IMG/VR virus record: IMGVR_UViG_3300030012_004039
Span: 53,844-104,035 of that record
Direction: 5' to 3' (one strand)
Length of the DNA: 50,192 nt
Origin: a virus
In this document: positions 27,318-42,156 of the stretch, one piece after another
Layout: each line of letters begins with the position of its first letter
Position numbering within the stretch: the first letter of the stretch is position 1
Program-made: the position numbers and the translations under genes
The notes under the pieces: generated by a model
Told to the model about the DNA's origin: nothing
What the model saw: only the letters and a program-made list of their open reading frames with translations
Database searches by the model: none

Positions 27318-28898
27318 TTAGTGAATAGTCACCGCAATCTTACCAAAGAATTCTTTTCTTACAACTTTCTTCGCGTAACGAGTCATTACACCTTTTCTAG
27401 GAGTAAAGTTAGTTGGATCGTACACAAGTGGAGTCATAATTAATGGAATATATGGAGCATATACAGCACCTGTTTCTAGGAACTGGTTACCTCTGAATCC
27501 CATCAATATACCGTCAGCAGTATTTCTGTAAGGGTTCTTATAGATAGTATATCTATTAGCGAACTGACCTACTTTAGTTACACCAGCAGCAAATTGAGTT
27601 TGAGCACTATCACCTGTAGCGTCAGTTGCAAATCCAGGCATTGCTTCAAGAATAGCAGCAATTTCAGGTGACATAACTGCGAAGTTAGCACCACCTCTCA
27701 TTGTAGCTTTATGAATCTGATTAGATACTTTTTGCATTTGGTAACCTAAAGTTTGTACCCAAGTACCAAAGTCATATCTAGCAGTACCGTTTGCTAATTG
27801 AGCAGAAACATATCCAGCAGCTGATCCTGATAATACAAATGTTTCACCTGTATGTAAAGCAGCTCTATCTAACATTGCTAAAATTTCCATGTCGATTTCC
27901 ATCGAGATGTACTCTGATAACATTGAAGTTAATTCAGCTTCAGCATCGATCGAGTGATAAGCATTTAAGTCTTGAGCAAATTCTGGTGACCATACAACTT
28001 TTAGTTTTCTAGTCTTTGCAACAAGAGCTTCTTGTCTTAATTGTACATTCATTTCTGGGATATCTAGATCGTTAGCATCACCTGCATCAGGGTTACCACC
28101 GTTAGTATCTTCAAAATCACCTCTTTCAGCAGCTACTGTAGTGTTTTTGTAGTAATGTACAAAGAACTTATCAGTTGCAGCTGAGTTGGTAGAACCAGTT
28201 CCACCTTGAGCTTTACCATTATATACAAATGATATAACAGTACCAGCAGCATTAGCAGTAGCAGTACCAGCAGTTGTACAAACAACACCAGTATCAGTAC
28301 CTGCAGCAGAAGCAGAAGTTAAAAAGAATGTAGCTGTTAAATCTAAATCAGCAGTCGATGCAGATGCAATCGGCACTGTAATAGCAGCATCAGCAGCTAC
28401 AGCTTGATTTAATGCTGCACCACCTAATTGTGAAAACTTCTTAAGAGTATATCCTTCTTTACCGTCTCCATAAAGTCCTCCTGTTGGAGTTGAAGATGCT
28501 GAAGTATTACCCATTACATCAGTACCATCAGTATGGTTTTCACCTCTTGTTGTACCATATTTGAAATCTAGATAAAATACTAGACCAGATGGTAAGTTCA
28601 TTGGTTGTACACTAACGAACTCTTTTGCGAATATTTCGCCGAAGATACGTCTTACTAATGGAAGTGCAACACCGTTCCACTCTTCTGAACCTGCAGATCC
28701 AATTTTAGAGTTCTCTGTTACTAGCTCTCTAGCTTGGTTTTCTAATAGAATAGCAGTATTATGCTTTTCATAATCTTTTTCGATTCCTTCAAGTAATCCA
28801 GTTTTTTCCCATTTAGTAACGTACTTCTTTGTCTCATTCAACTGTTGTCTATAAGTTGATTGAGCATCGTTTAATAAATTTGAAATTTCTTGTGACAT
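27318..28898 (-). CDS. 23: Major capsid protein gp23
   Basis: 526 residues (T4 gp23 is 521). Forms the head shell and is matured by cleavage of its N-terminal delta region. The N-terminus (TYRQQLNETKKYVTKWEKTG) leads to HNTAILLENQARELVTEN, where LLE at 51-53 fits the L/I-x-E cleavage pattern of the prohead protease. The core then has WNGVALPLVRRIFGEIFAKE and GLVFYLDFKYGTTRG, and ends with FTPRKGVMTRYAKKVVRKEFFG, all typical of T4-like gp23. A variable Ala/Gly/Thr-rich insert at about 160-240 is probably surface exposed. A strong AAGGAG site and a UUCG terminator fit high expression. Confidence 0.96.
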   Translation of the reverse strand: MSQEISNLLNDAQSTYRQQLNETKKYVTKWEKTGLLEGIEKDYEKHNTAILLENQARELVTENSKIGSAGSEEWNGVALPLVRRIFGEIFAKEFVSVQPMNLPSGLVFYLDFKYGTTRGENHTDGTDVMGNTSASSTPTGGLYGDGKEGYTLKKFSQLGGAALNQAVAADAAITVPIASASTADLDLTATFFLTSASAAGTDTGVVCTTAGTATANAAGTVISFVYNGKAQGGTGSTNSAATDKFFVHYYKNTTVAAERGDFEDTNGGNPDAGDANDLDIPEMNVQLRQEALVAKTRKLKVVWSPEFAQDLNAYHSIDAEAELTSMLSEYISMEIDMEILAMLDRAALHTGETFVLSGSAAGYVSAQLANGTARYDFGTWVQTLGYQMQKVSNQIHKATMRGGANFAVMSPEIAAILEAMPGFATDATGDSAQTQFAAGVTKVGQFANRYTIYKNPYRNTADGILMGFRGNQFLETGAVYAPYIPLIMTPLVYDPTNFTPRKGVMTRYAKKVVRKEFFGKIAVTIH

Positions 28899-31488: not shown

Positions 31489-32175
31489 TTATCCTCCTAT
31501 TCTTGAATATTTGTACATATCTGCTAAAGCTTTAACTGCTTTCTTTTTAGCTTGTTCAAATTCTTTTCCATATCTTCCTGAACCACCACCTTTTTTAGCA
31601 AGGTTTGCCATTTGAAATATTTTTTTAAGGTTTTCAGTCTCTTTGCTATCTTTCATTTTAGGAGCAGCTTCACTTAATTTAGTTTCGTTTTTAATCGCTT
31701 TAGTAATAGCTGCTCTTTTCTTTGCTAGATACTCGTCAGACTCATCTTCATCACCATCATTATCTATATCACCATCTTCTTTACCTACAGGATCTAAAGC
31801 TTCAGATATATCATAATACTTACCTAATTTGTTACCTATGTCTTCAAATACTGATTCAAGTCTTTGCTGTAGAGTAGATAATTCTTTTGCAGCTTTTTCA
31901 AACAATTTAGTAGATTTATTAACTTCAGACATATCCCTTTTTACTGTAACTGCATCAAACCAGTCACCTGTTTCTTGTAAAGCTAAAGTAGATGCACCTT
32001 TAGTCATACTTTTTATAGCTTCAACCATATCTTTAATTTCATTAGTCTTATAAACCTTAGCACCGAAATCATTAAATTTAGATACAGCATCCATAATACC
32101 TTTTTTCTCTTCGCTTGTAAGAGATCTATTAAAAGCTTCTTTATTGCTTTCATGTAATATCTGTTTTAGTTTCAT
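31489..32175 (-). CDS. Possible head-core protein, 228 residues
   Basis: Begins MKLKQILHESNKEAFNR, again a short helix ending in an L-x-E pattern (LHE). The body is helical with KGIMDAVSKFNDFGAKVYK, an acidic middle (GKEDGDIDNDGDEDESDEY) that could bind calcium-like ions or act as a flexible scaffold, and a basic C-terminus (FEQAKKKAVKALADMYKYS). Placed directly after gene 21. No family recognised; internal or scaffold role inferred from position and composition. Confidence 0.6.
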   Translation of the reverse strand: MKLKQILHESNKEAFNRSLTSEEKKGIMDAVSKFNDFGAKVYKTNEIKDMVEAIKSMTKGASTLALQETGDWFDAVTVKRDMSEVNKSTKLFEKAAKELSTLQQRLESVFEDIGNKLGKYYDISEALDPVGKEDGDIDNDGDEDESDEYLAKKRAAITKAIKNETKLSEAAPKMKDSKETENLKKIFQMANLAKKGGGSGRYGKEFEQAKKKAVKALADMYKYSRIGG

Positions 32176-32179
32176 TTAT

Positions 32180-32809
32180 CTACTCCTGATTAGGTAATGC
32201 ACATTTGCAAGTTAGATCGCAAAGCATTTCACTAATAATATTATTTACTTTAAAATATTTATCTTTTTTTACTTTTCTTGTTACTGATTCATTTATAGGT
32301 TTCATAAATGCTCCATGTGTAGATGGATTACTTACGAAGTCCCAACATACTAGTTCGAAATCATTTTGAACAGCAACTGTATCTTCGCTAATTTGTTTAA
32401 CAGAACCAAGACCTCTTGATGAAATACCAAGCTTAATACCAGATCTTAAAAGTTCTTTTAAAATATTTCCTGACGGCGTTGGTAGTACTTCAACTTTACC
32501 CATTACATCGTCTCCATTCCACCATACATCTAATATATTATGAGATGCATTAGCTAAATTTACTACTGAAGTATCAGGATGATCTAATTCTCCTAACGCT
32601 CTTCTTTCTGCAATTTGAACTTTTTTATATTCATTAACTTCACGCATAAGAATATCTTTAGGGTAAACTCTACCATTTTGATTTTTTGAGCCAGCTCGTT
32701 GAAGTACACCTGAAACTATTACTCGTCCATTATTCTGTTGTTCTGACTCAGTAATCATTTGAGGTGATATATCAAATGGAGTATAATCGATTAATAAGCT
32801 TTTACTCAT
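32180..32809 (-). CDS. 21: Prohead maturation protease gp21
   Basis: 209 residues (T4 gp21 is 212). Serine protease that degrades the scaffold and trims capsid proteins at L/I-x-E sites. The triad region is visible: His77 in GELDHPDTS, Ser130/Ser131 in GISSRGLGS, and Asp157 in LVCWDFVSNPS, in the same order and spacing as the T4 enzyme. I choose the ATG at 32807-32809 (MSKSLLIDY), which overlaps the stop of the 40-codon gene as ATGA and has GGGAGAGA at usual distance; the longer TTG reading from 32824 is unlikely. Confidence 0.92.
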   Translation of the reverse strand: MSKSLLIDYTPFDISPQMITESEQQNNGRVIVSGVLQRAGSKNQNGRVYPKDILMREVNEYKKVQIAERRALGELDHPDTSVVNLANASHNILDVWWNGDDVMGKVEVLPTPSGNILKELLRSGIKLGISSRGLGSVKQISEDTVAVQNDFELVCWDFVSNPSTHGAFMKPINESVTRKVKKDKYFKVNNIISEMLCDLTCKCALPNQE

Positions 32810-38347: not shown

Positions 38348-38929
38348 TTACTCCTTATCTTTTAATCTATTGTAAATTTTTCTAGCTGTTTGATAGACTT
38401 GAGATCCTTTTTTAGCTTTTAATGCTGTTCTTAATTTTATATCATTACCTGTTTTAGGATTTTCTATTCTTCTATCACCGTGAGTTTTTCTTACATCTAA
38501 TTCATTTACATCTTCCTCGTTTCTTTGAGTTGCTGGTGGTACTTTAGATCTTTGTTTATCTTTAGGATCGCTTTTTCTTGCTCCTTTAGCTCTTGCATCT
38601 TTAGTTAATCTACCTTTCACAACATTACCACTTTTAGTAAAATAGTGACCAGCAGGAGCACTTTTAGTTTCATCTAAATCAACCGGTTCATTAGATATAG
38701 CTCTATTGAAATCAAGTTCTGCTTTCTGAACTACTTTATGCATTTTAATTAAAGCTTGTTTAAGTTTTTCTTTCTTTTTAGGATTTTTTTCAGCAACAAA
38801 AGCCTTTCTTAATTGTTGTTGTTTAAGTTGAATATCCTGAAGAGCTTCTACCGCTTTTCTAAATCCTTTAGTCATAGATGCTTCTAACATCTTTTGTACT
38901 TCTTCTTTTATTAAATCTTTTATTTTCAT
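38348..38929 (-). CDS. Possible internal virion protein with candidate capsid-targeting leader
   Basis: 193 residues from the ATG at 38927-38929; a longer reading needs a TTG. Begins MKIKDLIKEEVQKMLEAS, an amphipathic helix with I-K-E and M-L-E cleavage-like sites. The remainder is strongly basic and extended (GRLTKDARAKGARKSDPKDK, THGDRRIENPKTGNDIK), consistent with a DNA-associated packaged protein. No enzyme motif seen. It starts 2 bases after the stop of the upstream XhlA-like gene. Confidence 0.6.
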   Translation of the reverse strand: MKIKDLIKEEVQKMLEASMTKGFRKAVEALQDIQLKQQQLRKAFVAEKNPKKKEKLKQALIKMHKVVQKAELDFNRAISNEPVDLDETKSAPAGHYFTKSGNVVKGRLTKDARAKGARKSDPKDKQRSKVPPATQRNEEDVNELDVRKTHGDRRIENPKTGNDIKLRTALKAKKGSQVYQTARKIYNRLKDKE

Positions 38930-39750: not shown

Positions 39751-42141
39751 CTAAAACGTCATCATTCCTGCAATTTGGTTTATAGGTCCAAATGCACCTG
39801 TTAATTTATACGTTTTACCTTTATATATAAACACTAAACCTTCAGAAGGTATAATAGCTTTCCAACCTCCTAACTGATTTAATTTATTTAACTGTTGACC
39901 TAATCTATTTAGTTTTTTAAGATCTCCACCTTTTCTAACATCACTAATAGCTTTAGATACTTGTTTTTTAACATTTTGAATAGCCTTATCAGGGTTAACT
40001 GCTAGGAAGTTTTCTACATTCTTAAGTACTACAACACCTAATTCAAAAAATAAAAGTTCAAAAGGTTTCATAGTATCTTGTACTGTACCTTTATGTTTTT
40101 GTTTATCGAATGCTATAATTTTCTCTCGAAGTTCTTGATCTTCTATGTTTTTAGCATTTAATCTAAACGATTTATCAAAGAACGCCCAGCGCTTTACAAG
40201 ACCCATTTTAATTCTACTTTCTAATCCTTTAAAATTTTTATCAATATAATTTTCCCACCATGCTTGGTGATAATCAGCAAACTTATTAGAATCTTTCATT
40301 TTATATGCTGACATTAATTTTTGTAATTTTTTAGTAAAATAAGGAATCTTTTCGCCAAAATCTTGAACCGGTTTTACTTTTAGTATATGAGGTCCAATAA
40401 TACTAAAACTCTTTTGTATATTAGCATCAACTTGTTTAATCATACCTGCTAATATTCTAGCACCATCTCTTACTGTACCAACTGGAGCTCCTTTTTCATA
40501 TTTCAATACACCATGAAATTGTAGTTTAGGAGCATCATAAACTATAACGTTAGCAGATTGTGGATACATAATCTCCATATTCATCCAATTATTACCATTG
40601 TTAAATATTTTCAGTCTTTGTTTTTCGGATAATCTTGATATAGCTTTACTTAAATCTCTAAATGCATAAGTAAACGCTTTTTCTATATTACCTCTTCCTT
40701 TCCATTTAGCAGCAAACGTTTTAGCATCCATACCACCACGTTTTATATCACCGTTATTTCTTGCTGCTTTTAGTTCAGTATCCCATGTAATAAATAAATT
40801 TTGACCGTCAGTTTTTTCAGTTGCAGCCGATTCTAAATTAAGTTTACCTTGCAAAGCAATATTTATCATTTGCTTAAAATCACCAAAAGTTAAATCTTTA
40901 TCATCGAACGGATGCGACATATGTCCATAAGCGCCTCCTTCTAAAATTAATCCTTCATTCATAAGTCTAAATTTTAATAATGGTCTACCATTTATTAAAA
41001 TATCACCTTTTTCATTTTTGGTAATAGTTTTTACAACTACTTTTTTATTTTTAAATTTACCACCTAAAATAGTATCGCCTACGTTAATAGGAATTTTAAT
41101 ATCTTCATTAGTTAAAGATGGTAAATCTTTATTAGGTTCAGGATGATTAGTAGAATCTTCAGCACCTAAATAATCTAATAGTTCGTATCCTAAAGATTTG
41201 GCAAGTTTATCTTTTTCAGCTTTCCATTTTCTATATGCAGTTAAATTAGGATATGCTTTAGGTGCAATAGTTGTAGTTCTACCAGCGACGCCTGAAGGAA
41301 AATTAGATGGTTGTCTAGTAGTTGAATATCTAGAAGGTTCTCGTAATAATTCATTTTCTCCTGAAAGATAATTTAAAACTTGCATACCAAGTCTTTTTGC
41401 AATACTATCAGTAGATTGTTTATAATGACTTTGTGTTTGATACCAAGTTTGAGGTCCATCATCTACATCACCACCAATAGTTTTACTATTTTCTTTAATA
41501 ATTTTTGTAACTTTTCCAGAAGCGATAAAATCTAATATAGATTCATTTACACCTAACTTTTTAGTTATTAAATTATAATTTTTCATATGACCAAAAATAC
41601 CTTTAAATAGTCTCGCTCTATCTTTACCGTCAATAGCTTTAGCGCCAAGTGCTTGTCTAATAGCTGTACCTGACATTTCTCCGTAACCAGGTACTTTTAA
41701 ACTTACATGAGGTGCTTCTATAATGTAAGCACCTTCTTTATATCCTATTTCAGCTTTACCTTTCCATGGTCTAAAAAACTTTCCTTTCAGTCTACCTGAA
41801 TCTTTTGCACCGAACATAAATACAGCTGCTGTAGTATTAGGATCATATTTTTTAAGTAGTTCTTCAGCTTTATAAGGACTCTTTACTTTTATTACATTTC
41901 GTATTCCATAAGAATTAATAATTTTTTTCTTTTCATTGAAAGTAAAAGGAGATTTAGGAAGCTCTACTTTATCTGAAGTTGCTACCCAAGCATCTTTAAA
42001 TTTAGATTTTAAAAATTTATATGCTTGTGCATGGTGCTTACCCATAGGTTGAAATCTACCAGGATAAATAGCCACTATATTTTTTATAGTAGAATTCTCT
42101 TCAGTAATTATTTGGTTAGCAAGCCACTTTCCTAAATTCAT
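39751..42141 (-). CDS. Fusion of an NMN-adenylyltransferase-like domain and an RNA/DNA-ligase-like domain
   Basis: 796 residues from the ATG at 42139-42141, which has GGAG at the right distance; a Met four codons earlier is in frame. Residue numbers are counted from that upstream Met. First, a leader helix with LANQIITEEN. Then a nucleotidylyltransferase fold with PGRFQPMGKHH at 31-41 (the HxGH site is altered to GKHH) and MSGTAIRQAL near 160, like the (I/S)S-T-x-x-R end motif of NadM-type enzymes. A duplicated helix pair follows (residues about 250-265 and 317-332). The C-terminal half is ligase-like: EKTDGQN with Lys447, RNNGDIKRGG, MNMEIMYP with Glu527, LQFHGVL, SEGLVF with Glu771 and YKLTG with Lys783, the five nucleotidyltransferase motifs. 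The substrate is unknown; RNA end repair or NAD metabolism are both possible. Confidence 0.75.
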   Translation of the reverse strand: MNLGKWLANQIITEENSTIKNIVAIYPGRFQPMGKHHAQAYKFLKSKFKDAWVATSDKVELPKSPFTFNEKKKIINSYGIRNVIKVKSPYKAEELLKKYDPNTTAAVFMFGAKDSGRLKGKFFRPWKGKAEIGYKEGAYIIEAPHVSLKVPGYGEMSGTAIRQALGAKAIDGKDRARLFKGIFGHMKNYNLITKKLGVNESILDFIASGKVTKIIKENSKTIGGDVDDGPQTWYQTQSHYKQSTDSIAKRLGMQVLNYLSGENELLREPSRYSTTRQPSNFPSGVAGRTTTIAPKAYPNLTAYRKWKAEKDKLAKSLGYELLDYLGAEDSTNHPEPNKDLPSLTNEDIKIPINVGDTILGGKFKNKKVVVKTITKNEKGDILINGRPLLKFRLMNEGLILEGGAYGHMSHPFDDKDLTFGDFKQMINIALQGKLNLESAATEKTDGQNLFITWDTELKAARNNGDIKRGGMDAKTFAAKWKGRGNIEKAFTYAFRDLSKAISRLSEKQRLKIFNNGNNWMNMEIMYPQSANVIVYDAPKLQFHGVLKYEKGAPVGTVRDGARILAGMIKQVDANIQKSFSIIGPHILKVKPVQDFGEKIPYFTKKLQKLMSAYKMKDSNKFADYHQAWWENYIDKNFKGLESRIKMGLVKRWAFFDKSFRLNAKNIEDQELREKIIAFDKQKHKGTVQDTMKPFELLFFELGVVVLKNVENFLAVNPDKAIQNVKKQVSKAISDVRKGGDLKKLNRLGQQLNKLNQLGGWKAIIPSEGLVFIYKGKTYKLTGAFGPINQIAGMMTF

Positions 42142-42156
42142 AGTTTTCTCCATATA

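Follow-up and report, generated by a model that had tools for sequence, protein, structure and literature searches.

The internal proteins of phage T4, Alt among them, carry short N-terminal leaders ending in L/I-X-E and are ejected into the host together with the DNA; these leaders are 10–19 residues long, and the head protease gp21 cuts after L/I-X-E (PMC9026906). Injection has also been predicted for the polyvalent proteins, which in the accessible portions of the published account are portrayed as chains of many unrelated domains in phages with a portal and terminase, their processing being ascribed to zincin-like peptidases (PMC5512222). RNA ligases come up in those same portions solely as lacking an association with 2H domains, and the portions name no ligase or HxGH nucleotidyltransferase (NTase) domain in the published set, which does include pol-beta NTases (PMC5512222). 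A further point of comparison is offered by the T4-like cyanophages, where T4-GC190, a "citidylyltransferase", belongs to a set of 25 genes which, beyond the T4 core, were common to 16 of 16 genomes compared in 2010, and has been detected in the S-SM1 virion (Sullivan et al., 2010, PMC3037559).

The protein described here is encoded in a 50,192-nt window (the whole stretch of DNA that was analysed) of a 104-kb virus record, by an open reading frame of 800 codons on the minus strand (39751-42153), which also carries all window features located below. Because the ATG at 42141 is preceded, at a distance of 6 nt, by a GGAG, a Shine-Dalgarno-type spacing, this start (39751..42141, 796 aa) is likelier than the alternative ATG at 42153; residue numbers, including K447, E527, E771 and K783, nonetheless follow the 800-aa frame. 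From the N-terminus, a capsid-targeting-type leader is followed by an NTase domain, a linker in which two sites, V-N-E204 and I-K-E221, are conserved and predicted to be cleaved (41467..41544, from the alignment of relatives), a middle domain, an SH3-like insert, a short second linker and an RNA-ligase-like domain. The middle domain (residues ~230-340, 41134..41466) starts at a conserved DDGP and is modelled by AF2 with low confidence, while the insert IKIPINVGDTILGGKFKNKKVVVKTI (residues ~350-396, 40966..41106) is optional, occurs elsewhere in modular relatives too and owes its fold name to inspection by eye. The preliminary description, which had proposed that an NMNAT-type and a ligase-type nucleotidyltransferase are fused in one polypeptide, is thus borne out by the single reading frame, the structure and profile matches of the NTase and the invariant ligase motifs; it did not include the middle domain, the SH3-like insert or the larger modular series to which the protein belongs.

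The NTase domain (residues ~23-203, 41545..42087) belongs by structure and profile matches to the HxGH superfamily (NMNAT/PPAT-like). In Foldseek its best structural match is PPAT (E 1e-5), with NadM at E 1e-4, and in sequence its best match is to archaeal NMNAT/NadM (1f9a, E 3e-4 in a profile search). It shares with NadM/NadR and archaeal NMNAT the fold and the motifs GRFQP, here GRFQPMGKHH (residues 32-41, 42031..42060, by alignment of relatives), and SGTxxR, here SGTAIR (residues 161-166), but differs from them in having GKHH for HxGH and in its partner, which resembles a ligase instead of being a Nudix or kinase domain. Library models recover it poorly: PF01467 (CTP_transf_like) scores 16 bits against a cut-off of 21 for the window protein and 22.4 bits for relative L115, and the NMNAT models of NCBIfam stay far below cut-off for the NTase half. 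Wherever the stretch is present, H41, S161, T163 and R166 are invariant (53-55 non-redundant relatives). The altered HxGH reported in the preliminary description is indeed there, but it does not hold as a sign of a lost active site. At this position GKHH is found in 82 sequences, GPHH in 14, GAHH in 6 and the canonical HSGH or HRGH in 12; TTGH and HKGH occur as well, and the canonical HxGH is that of divergent relatives. As judged from the aligned sequences, GKHH is an HxGH in which the first His and the Gly have been exchanged in most family members. Since it is such a swap and relatives retain the canonical form, loss of NTase activity is not to be assumed, and a dead active site was rejected as the default reading in view of these variants and the invariance of the remaining motifs.

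The affinities of the NTase raise the question of whether the protein, though packaged, is chiefly a device for NAD+, with the NTase acting as an NMN adenylyltransferase against NAD-depleting defences and the ligase-fold domain adenylating or modifying another target. The sequence match to archaeal NMNAT/NadM and the SGTxxR motif are in keeping with this, as are the interpretation of virion NTases as NMNAT in the S-SCSM1 proteome paper (PMC9602691) and the carriage of NAD salvage by phages against NADase defences (PMC9503650). The structural preference for PPAT points elsewhere, and no NadV-type salvage gene was found in the phage's own 104-kb record, possibly a fragment, whereas NadM-bearing phages all had NadV in the survey (PMC9503650). 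The constant pairing with a ligase fold and the occasional kinase or pol-beta NTase modules described below point to RNA ends rather than to NAD+, and this alternative is regarded as unlikely.

The C-terminal half (residues 406-800, 39754..40938) was not recognized by the libraries searched: Pfam, including its RNA_ligase model, PHROGs and NCBIfam gave nothing usable, and a profile search of PDB sequences gave no match. Its assignment relies on an AF2 model (pLDDT 87), motifs and structure matches. RNA ligases take each of the six best places among its PDB matches, with modest but specific scores (E 0.011-0.14); T4 Rnl1 is the best (E 0.011, probability 0.87, TM about 0.27), and an archaeal RNA ligase and T4 Rnl2 are also among the six. 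In BFVD the matches consist of the protein's own family and NTase fusions, then mostly RNA ligases, down to E 4.5e-4. Single hhalign comparisons, with low probabilities, gave E 0.026 for T4 Rnl1 and 0.007 for Rnl2 versus 0.48 for an unrelated control, and brought motif I of both ligases into register at the nucleotidyl lysine, and motif III correctly for Rnl1. With T4 DNA ligase hhalign gave no motif alignment, and for that reason a DNA-ligase reading is not favoured.

The half has the motif set of the lysine nucleotidyltransferases (motifs I, III, IV and V), with motif I as E446-K447-T-D-G-Q-N (40798..40818) and motifs IV (P-S-E771-G) and V (Y-K783-L-T-G) within 39796..39849. None of the residues K447, D449, G450, E527, E771 and K783 varies among 53-55 non-redundant relatives, and a 65-sequence alignment shows the ligase motifs to be invariant too. 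Of the two observations on which the preliminary description had staked the ligase assignment, conservation of K447 came out in its favour, and a ligase fold in the predicted structure did so tentatively, at modest scores. Its statement that all five motifs are present stands for the invariant K447, E527, E771 and K783 but needs correcting for motif V, where a single lysine (K-L-T) stands in place of the K-x-K of T4 Rnl1 and Rnl2. The resemblance to these two enzymes extends to motif I (KxDG or EKxxGxN), the register of motifs III and IIIa, and motif IV; besides the single lysine, the window protein differs in a helical insertion of ~170 aa between motifs IIIa and IV (39874..40386, from the secondary structure of the AF2 model), in having no C-terminal domain, and in an extra HxxHxxD. 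The latter, H411-M-x-H414-P-F-D417-D418 (40900..40923), is a family hallmark; in 149 of 151 relatives it precedes K447 by 36 residues. The missing C-terminal ligase domain, the large insertion and the lack of a second lysine in motif V might suggest a catalytically dead ligase fold, used within the head as a scaffold with a structural or RNA-binding role. Drift would be expected of a dead enzyme, yet the six residues are invariant in distant relatives, and such a scaffold seems quite improbable. The C-terminal half is best described as an RNA-ligase-like lysine nucleotidyltransferase, an assignment that is supported but not settled, the fold being less firmly established than that of the NTase.

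The preliminary description considered this combination unusual; the family search instead revealed a widespread, conserved pair. Scanning viral contigs brought up 128 relatives, and a profile scan at least 540 confirmed ones; the fusion is present in more than 100 viral contigs, and 123 of the reading frames fetched have NTase, middle domain and ligase. Microcystis phage Mel-JY01 is among the carriers of the fusion. The order can change, to ligase before NTase in L228 and to middle-NTase-ligase in L227; the middle domain is absent from L081 and L124, and the ligase stands alone in L083 (a 462-kb phage) and L230 (a rumen contig of 410 kb). The NTase profile found no separate NTase gene in the L083 phage, and the same profile misses the known divergent NTase of L231. 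These reordered, stand-alone and middle-less exceptions indicate, at the sequence level, that NTase, middle domain and ligase are separate modules that tend to stay together. L230 and L231, 400-kb rumen contigs binned as Firmicutes/Erysipelotrichaceae, are probably mis-binned jumbo phages, and in L231 an NTase with TQGH is still fused to the ligase.

Long relatives of 1200-1900 aa carry added modules. A P-loop kinase (PF13671/PF06414) is found in L150, while L101 adds a retropepsin-like domain (PF05618) and a pol-beta NTase, a class represented in the published polyvalent set. The pol-beta NTase of L101 is 32% identical (E 3e-37) to a protein detected in the S-CREM2 virion. That S-CREM2 protein, gp156 (L384:5013-5726), is annotated as hypothetical and proves to be a pol-beta-type NTase (PF01909 at threshold) homologous to the L101 module. 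Kinases and pol-beta NTases have been described as accompanying RNA ligases when phages repair RNA (PMC7824862). In L098, L101, L115, L129 and L150 (1200-1630 aa) the added modules stand in differing orders; inspection by eye also picked out a stretch resembling ART in L098 and one with HExxH in L115. With an NTase and a ligase-like domain in one chain of a packaging phage, and further domains in relatives, the family resembles the polyvalent proteins in joining two or more unrelated enzymatic domains; it differs from them in that its processing is ascribed to the head maturation protease instead of zincin-like peptidases.

A viral structure search with the ligase half led to a protein of 591 aa in cyanophage S-PM2, which contains the same pair in reversed order: KWDG and PEGFV...VKIV motifs in the N-terminal half and a GRFNPPTTGH NTase in the C-terminal half. 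The former corresponds to Pfam DUF6267 (PF19782) and PHROG 455, both of function unknown, and the latter to CTP_transf_like and PHROG 395. In all, 549 phage records match this protein wholly or partly. Cyanophage records place the T4-GC190 "cytidyltransferase" (PHROG 395/3041) beside T4-GC71/DUF6267, and among the loci examined the pair is split into two overlapping reading frames in 79 and fused ligase-first in 49, the fused forms being mainly S-PM2-like; the window protein, in contrast, is an NTase-first fusion. No DUF6267 gene was seen directly beside the NTase in S-SCSM1 and S-CREM2, so that adjacency is not universal. The NTases of the cyanophages and the window are homologous (hhalign E 3e-9), whereas the ligase halves have diverged too far for a significant sequence match (E 0.04), even though the local alignment has motifs IV-V in register, and are linked by structure (E 2.7e-4 between DUF6267-type and window models) and by shared KxDG, EG[YFL]V...K and HxxHxxD motifs. 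HxxHxxD precedes the lysine by 41-43 residues in almost every one of 137 cyanophage reading frames and in 0 of 1146 other segments of those frames. PF19782 gave no match above the Pfam gathering score on the window C-terminal domain, which is accordingly not a member by Pfam's rule, and in the libraries searched DUF6267 is not recognized as a ligase fold. Taken together, the modelled structures, the motifs and the NTase partner suggest that DUF6267 of cyanophages is probably an RNA-ligase-like nucleotidyltransferase. Examples of the family, unrecognized as ligase-like in Pfam and PHROGs, lie at L386:27296-28270, L302:5992-7197 and L237:33486-35261.

The N-terminus of the window protein bears on where such a pair may act. 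Its 14-residue leader MNLGKWLANQIITE (residues 5-18, 42100..42141) ends in I-T-E, and comparison with other leaders together with the L/I-X-E rule for gp21 (PMC9026906) predicts a maturation-protease cut after E18 (I-T-E|E); MNLGKWLANQIITE|E is conserved in form across relatives. The same phage has a T4 gp21-type head maturation protease (32180..32809, phrog_207 E 1.6e-58), and portal, terminase and a gp23-type major head protein (27318..28898) also lie nearby, the head protein having ELVTE|NSKIG close to where T4 has FLTE|AEIGG. Other reading frames of the phage start with similar leaders (MIKLKNILNE, MIKIKDILTE, MKLKKILKE, MKLKQILHE, MKIKDLIKE; enrichment p = 0.0035). A chance origin of the leader was rejected, a 12-column leader profile finding mainly this family and only 4 matches in 660 internal segments.

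Virion proteomes of cyanophages provide a second line of evidence. Besides T4-GC190 in S-SM1, an NMNAT was reported in the S-SCSM1 virion (PMC9602691), an earlier NMNAT report exists for S-CBWM1, as cited in that paper, and the cytidylyltransferase ORF154 was found in the S-CREM2 virion (PMC10665884). The virion-detected NTases begin with T4-type leaders in all three cases checked, MKKFSAFLNE|A in S-SM1, MKSFLQFLKE|A in S-SCSM1 and MKNFSSFLTE|A in S-CREM2. The main texts of the cyanophage proteome papers do not name the ligase partner, T4-GC71/DUF6267, among virion proteins, and presence in the virion is shown for cyanophage homologues of the NTase half. It could be argued that the fusion is an ordinary early or late cytoplasmic enzyme, its leader an amphipathic N-terminus and the proteome NTases contaminants; carry-over was raised by the proteome authors themselves (S-CREM2, PMC10665884; S-SCSM1, PMC9602691), and some homologues, such as the P-HM1 NTase, are leaderless. 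Against this, an NMNAT- or cytidylyltransferase-like protein is listed in at least four cyanophage proteomes, the three checked have T4-type leaders, and an accidental N-terminus would not explain why the leader is copied before an internal domain in many relatives or why the stand-alone ligase L083 also begins with one (MKFLKSYEEFLNE, taken from the alignment of reading frames). A cytoplasmic enzyme is therefore considered very unlikely. By analogy with the cyanophage homologues of its NTase half, the fusion protein of the window phage appears to be packaged in the head, in agreement with the capsid-targeting leader and Alt-like packaging put forward in the preliminary description, in support of which leader copies and cleavage-site enrichment can now be added. 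As the pair would be loaded in the head and one cyanophage partner is found inside particles, it is likely to be at work from the onset of infection.

The linkers have features of the leader. The short linker directly before the ligase reads LMNE|GLILE|GG (40939..40965), and at this place at least 16 non-redundant relatives have a second leader copy (e.g., LGQWLAKQILTE) that ends 0-1 residue before the ligase-opening GG; the window protein has no such copy. In comparison with shuffled sequences, [LIVMF]xE is found 206 times versus 128±9 expected in the leader, 163 versus 66±7 in the NTase-middle linker and 248 versus 175±10 in the middle-ligase linker, deviations that are not independent because the counted sequences are related. 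The stricter [LIV][TNSAKLG]E is enriched in leader and linkers but not in the cores (18 versus 50 expected in the NTase, 131 versus 157 in the ligase). On a plain reading of these sequences, the ligase would once have been a protein of its own with a leader, the state found in L083 and L230, or would still be cut free in the double-leader relatives. Alternatively, the leader may direct a chain that stays whole, the L/I-X-E sites of the linkers remaining uncut and the duplicated leader being the record of a past gene fusion. The window protein, lacking a second leader and having 12 [LIVMF]xE matches of a consensus short enough to arise by chance, would fit this possibility. The confinement of the stricter motif to leader and linkers, its absence as an enrichment from the cores, and the placement of a site immediately before the ligase in most relatives argue for cleavage, and an uncut chain is viewed as a real but rather doubtful prospect.

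The reading that best accommodates these observations, to which a probability of roughly 60% is given, is that the protein is a capsid-internal, leader-targeted multi-enzyme protein of a T4-like marine phage, probably cut by a gp21-type protease and ejected early, most likely for RNA-end repair and/or NAD metabolism. In this scheme, the N-terminal leader would target the chain into the prohead core, and the protease would remove it after E18 and probably also cut the linkers at the L/I/V-X-E sites E204, E221 and E405, so that the NTase and the RNA-ligase-like enzyme come apart; interdomain cleavage of the window protein is suggested by the site pattern of its relatives. Both enzymes, presumably active in view of their conserved catalytic residues, would be ejected with the DNA and work at once. 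The conserved pairing suggests that they serve one pathway, and RNA-end repair is ranked first because the kinase and pol-beta NTase of relatives are known companions of RNA ligases. The likeliest substrates would be tRNA ends, of the host or the phage, left by the cuts of defence nucleases, and the NTase would provide or attach a nucleotide, for instance by keeping up NAD+. A more specific version, in which a virion-borne polyprotein is cut by the maturation protease into a two-enzyme RNA-end/NAD-linked repair pathway (the NTase and a new ligase branch to which DUF6267 would belong, at times joined by a kinase or pol-beta NTase) working before phage gene expression, is tentative and falls somewhat short of an even chance. 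Ejection with the DNA, as proposed here, the leader and the protease are shared with the T4 internal proteins and Alt, from which the window family differs in having two nucleotidyltransferases rather than an ADP-ribosyltransferase or IP proteins, in its multi-domain chain and in the internal leader copies of relatives. T4-GC190, repeatedly found in virions, thereby acquires as partner a function-unknown family that is now a probable ligase-fold nucleotidyltransferase, and since another marine lineage has the pair fused behind capsid-targeting leaders, a role that can be tested is at hand, RNA repair or NAD upkeep loaded in advance for the moment of infection. The combination of a leader with L/I-X-E linkers may also be used as a sequence signature to find other injected enzymes.

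Further proteins of the window show related features. The reading frame at 31489-32175, also on the minus strand, joins the leader MKLKQILHE to an acidic EF-hand-like segment (DPVGKEDGDIDNDGDEDESDEY) and is a modular, probably packaged protein; this segment is common to the cyanophage "cytitidyltransferase" GC534 and PHROG 764 proteins. A second reading frame, at 38348-38929 (minus strand), starts with MKIKDLIKEEVQKMLEA, contains the module HYFTKSGNVVKGRLTKDARAKGARKSDPKDKQRSKVPPATQ and looks like a leader-bearing modular head protein. Elsewhere in the same phage (G000:C1 40130-42056), GroEL- and GroES-like proteins are encoded, and queuosine/archaeosine-type genes, identified by eye, lie near 47-52 kb.
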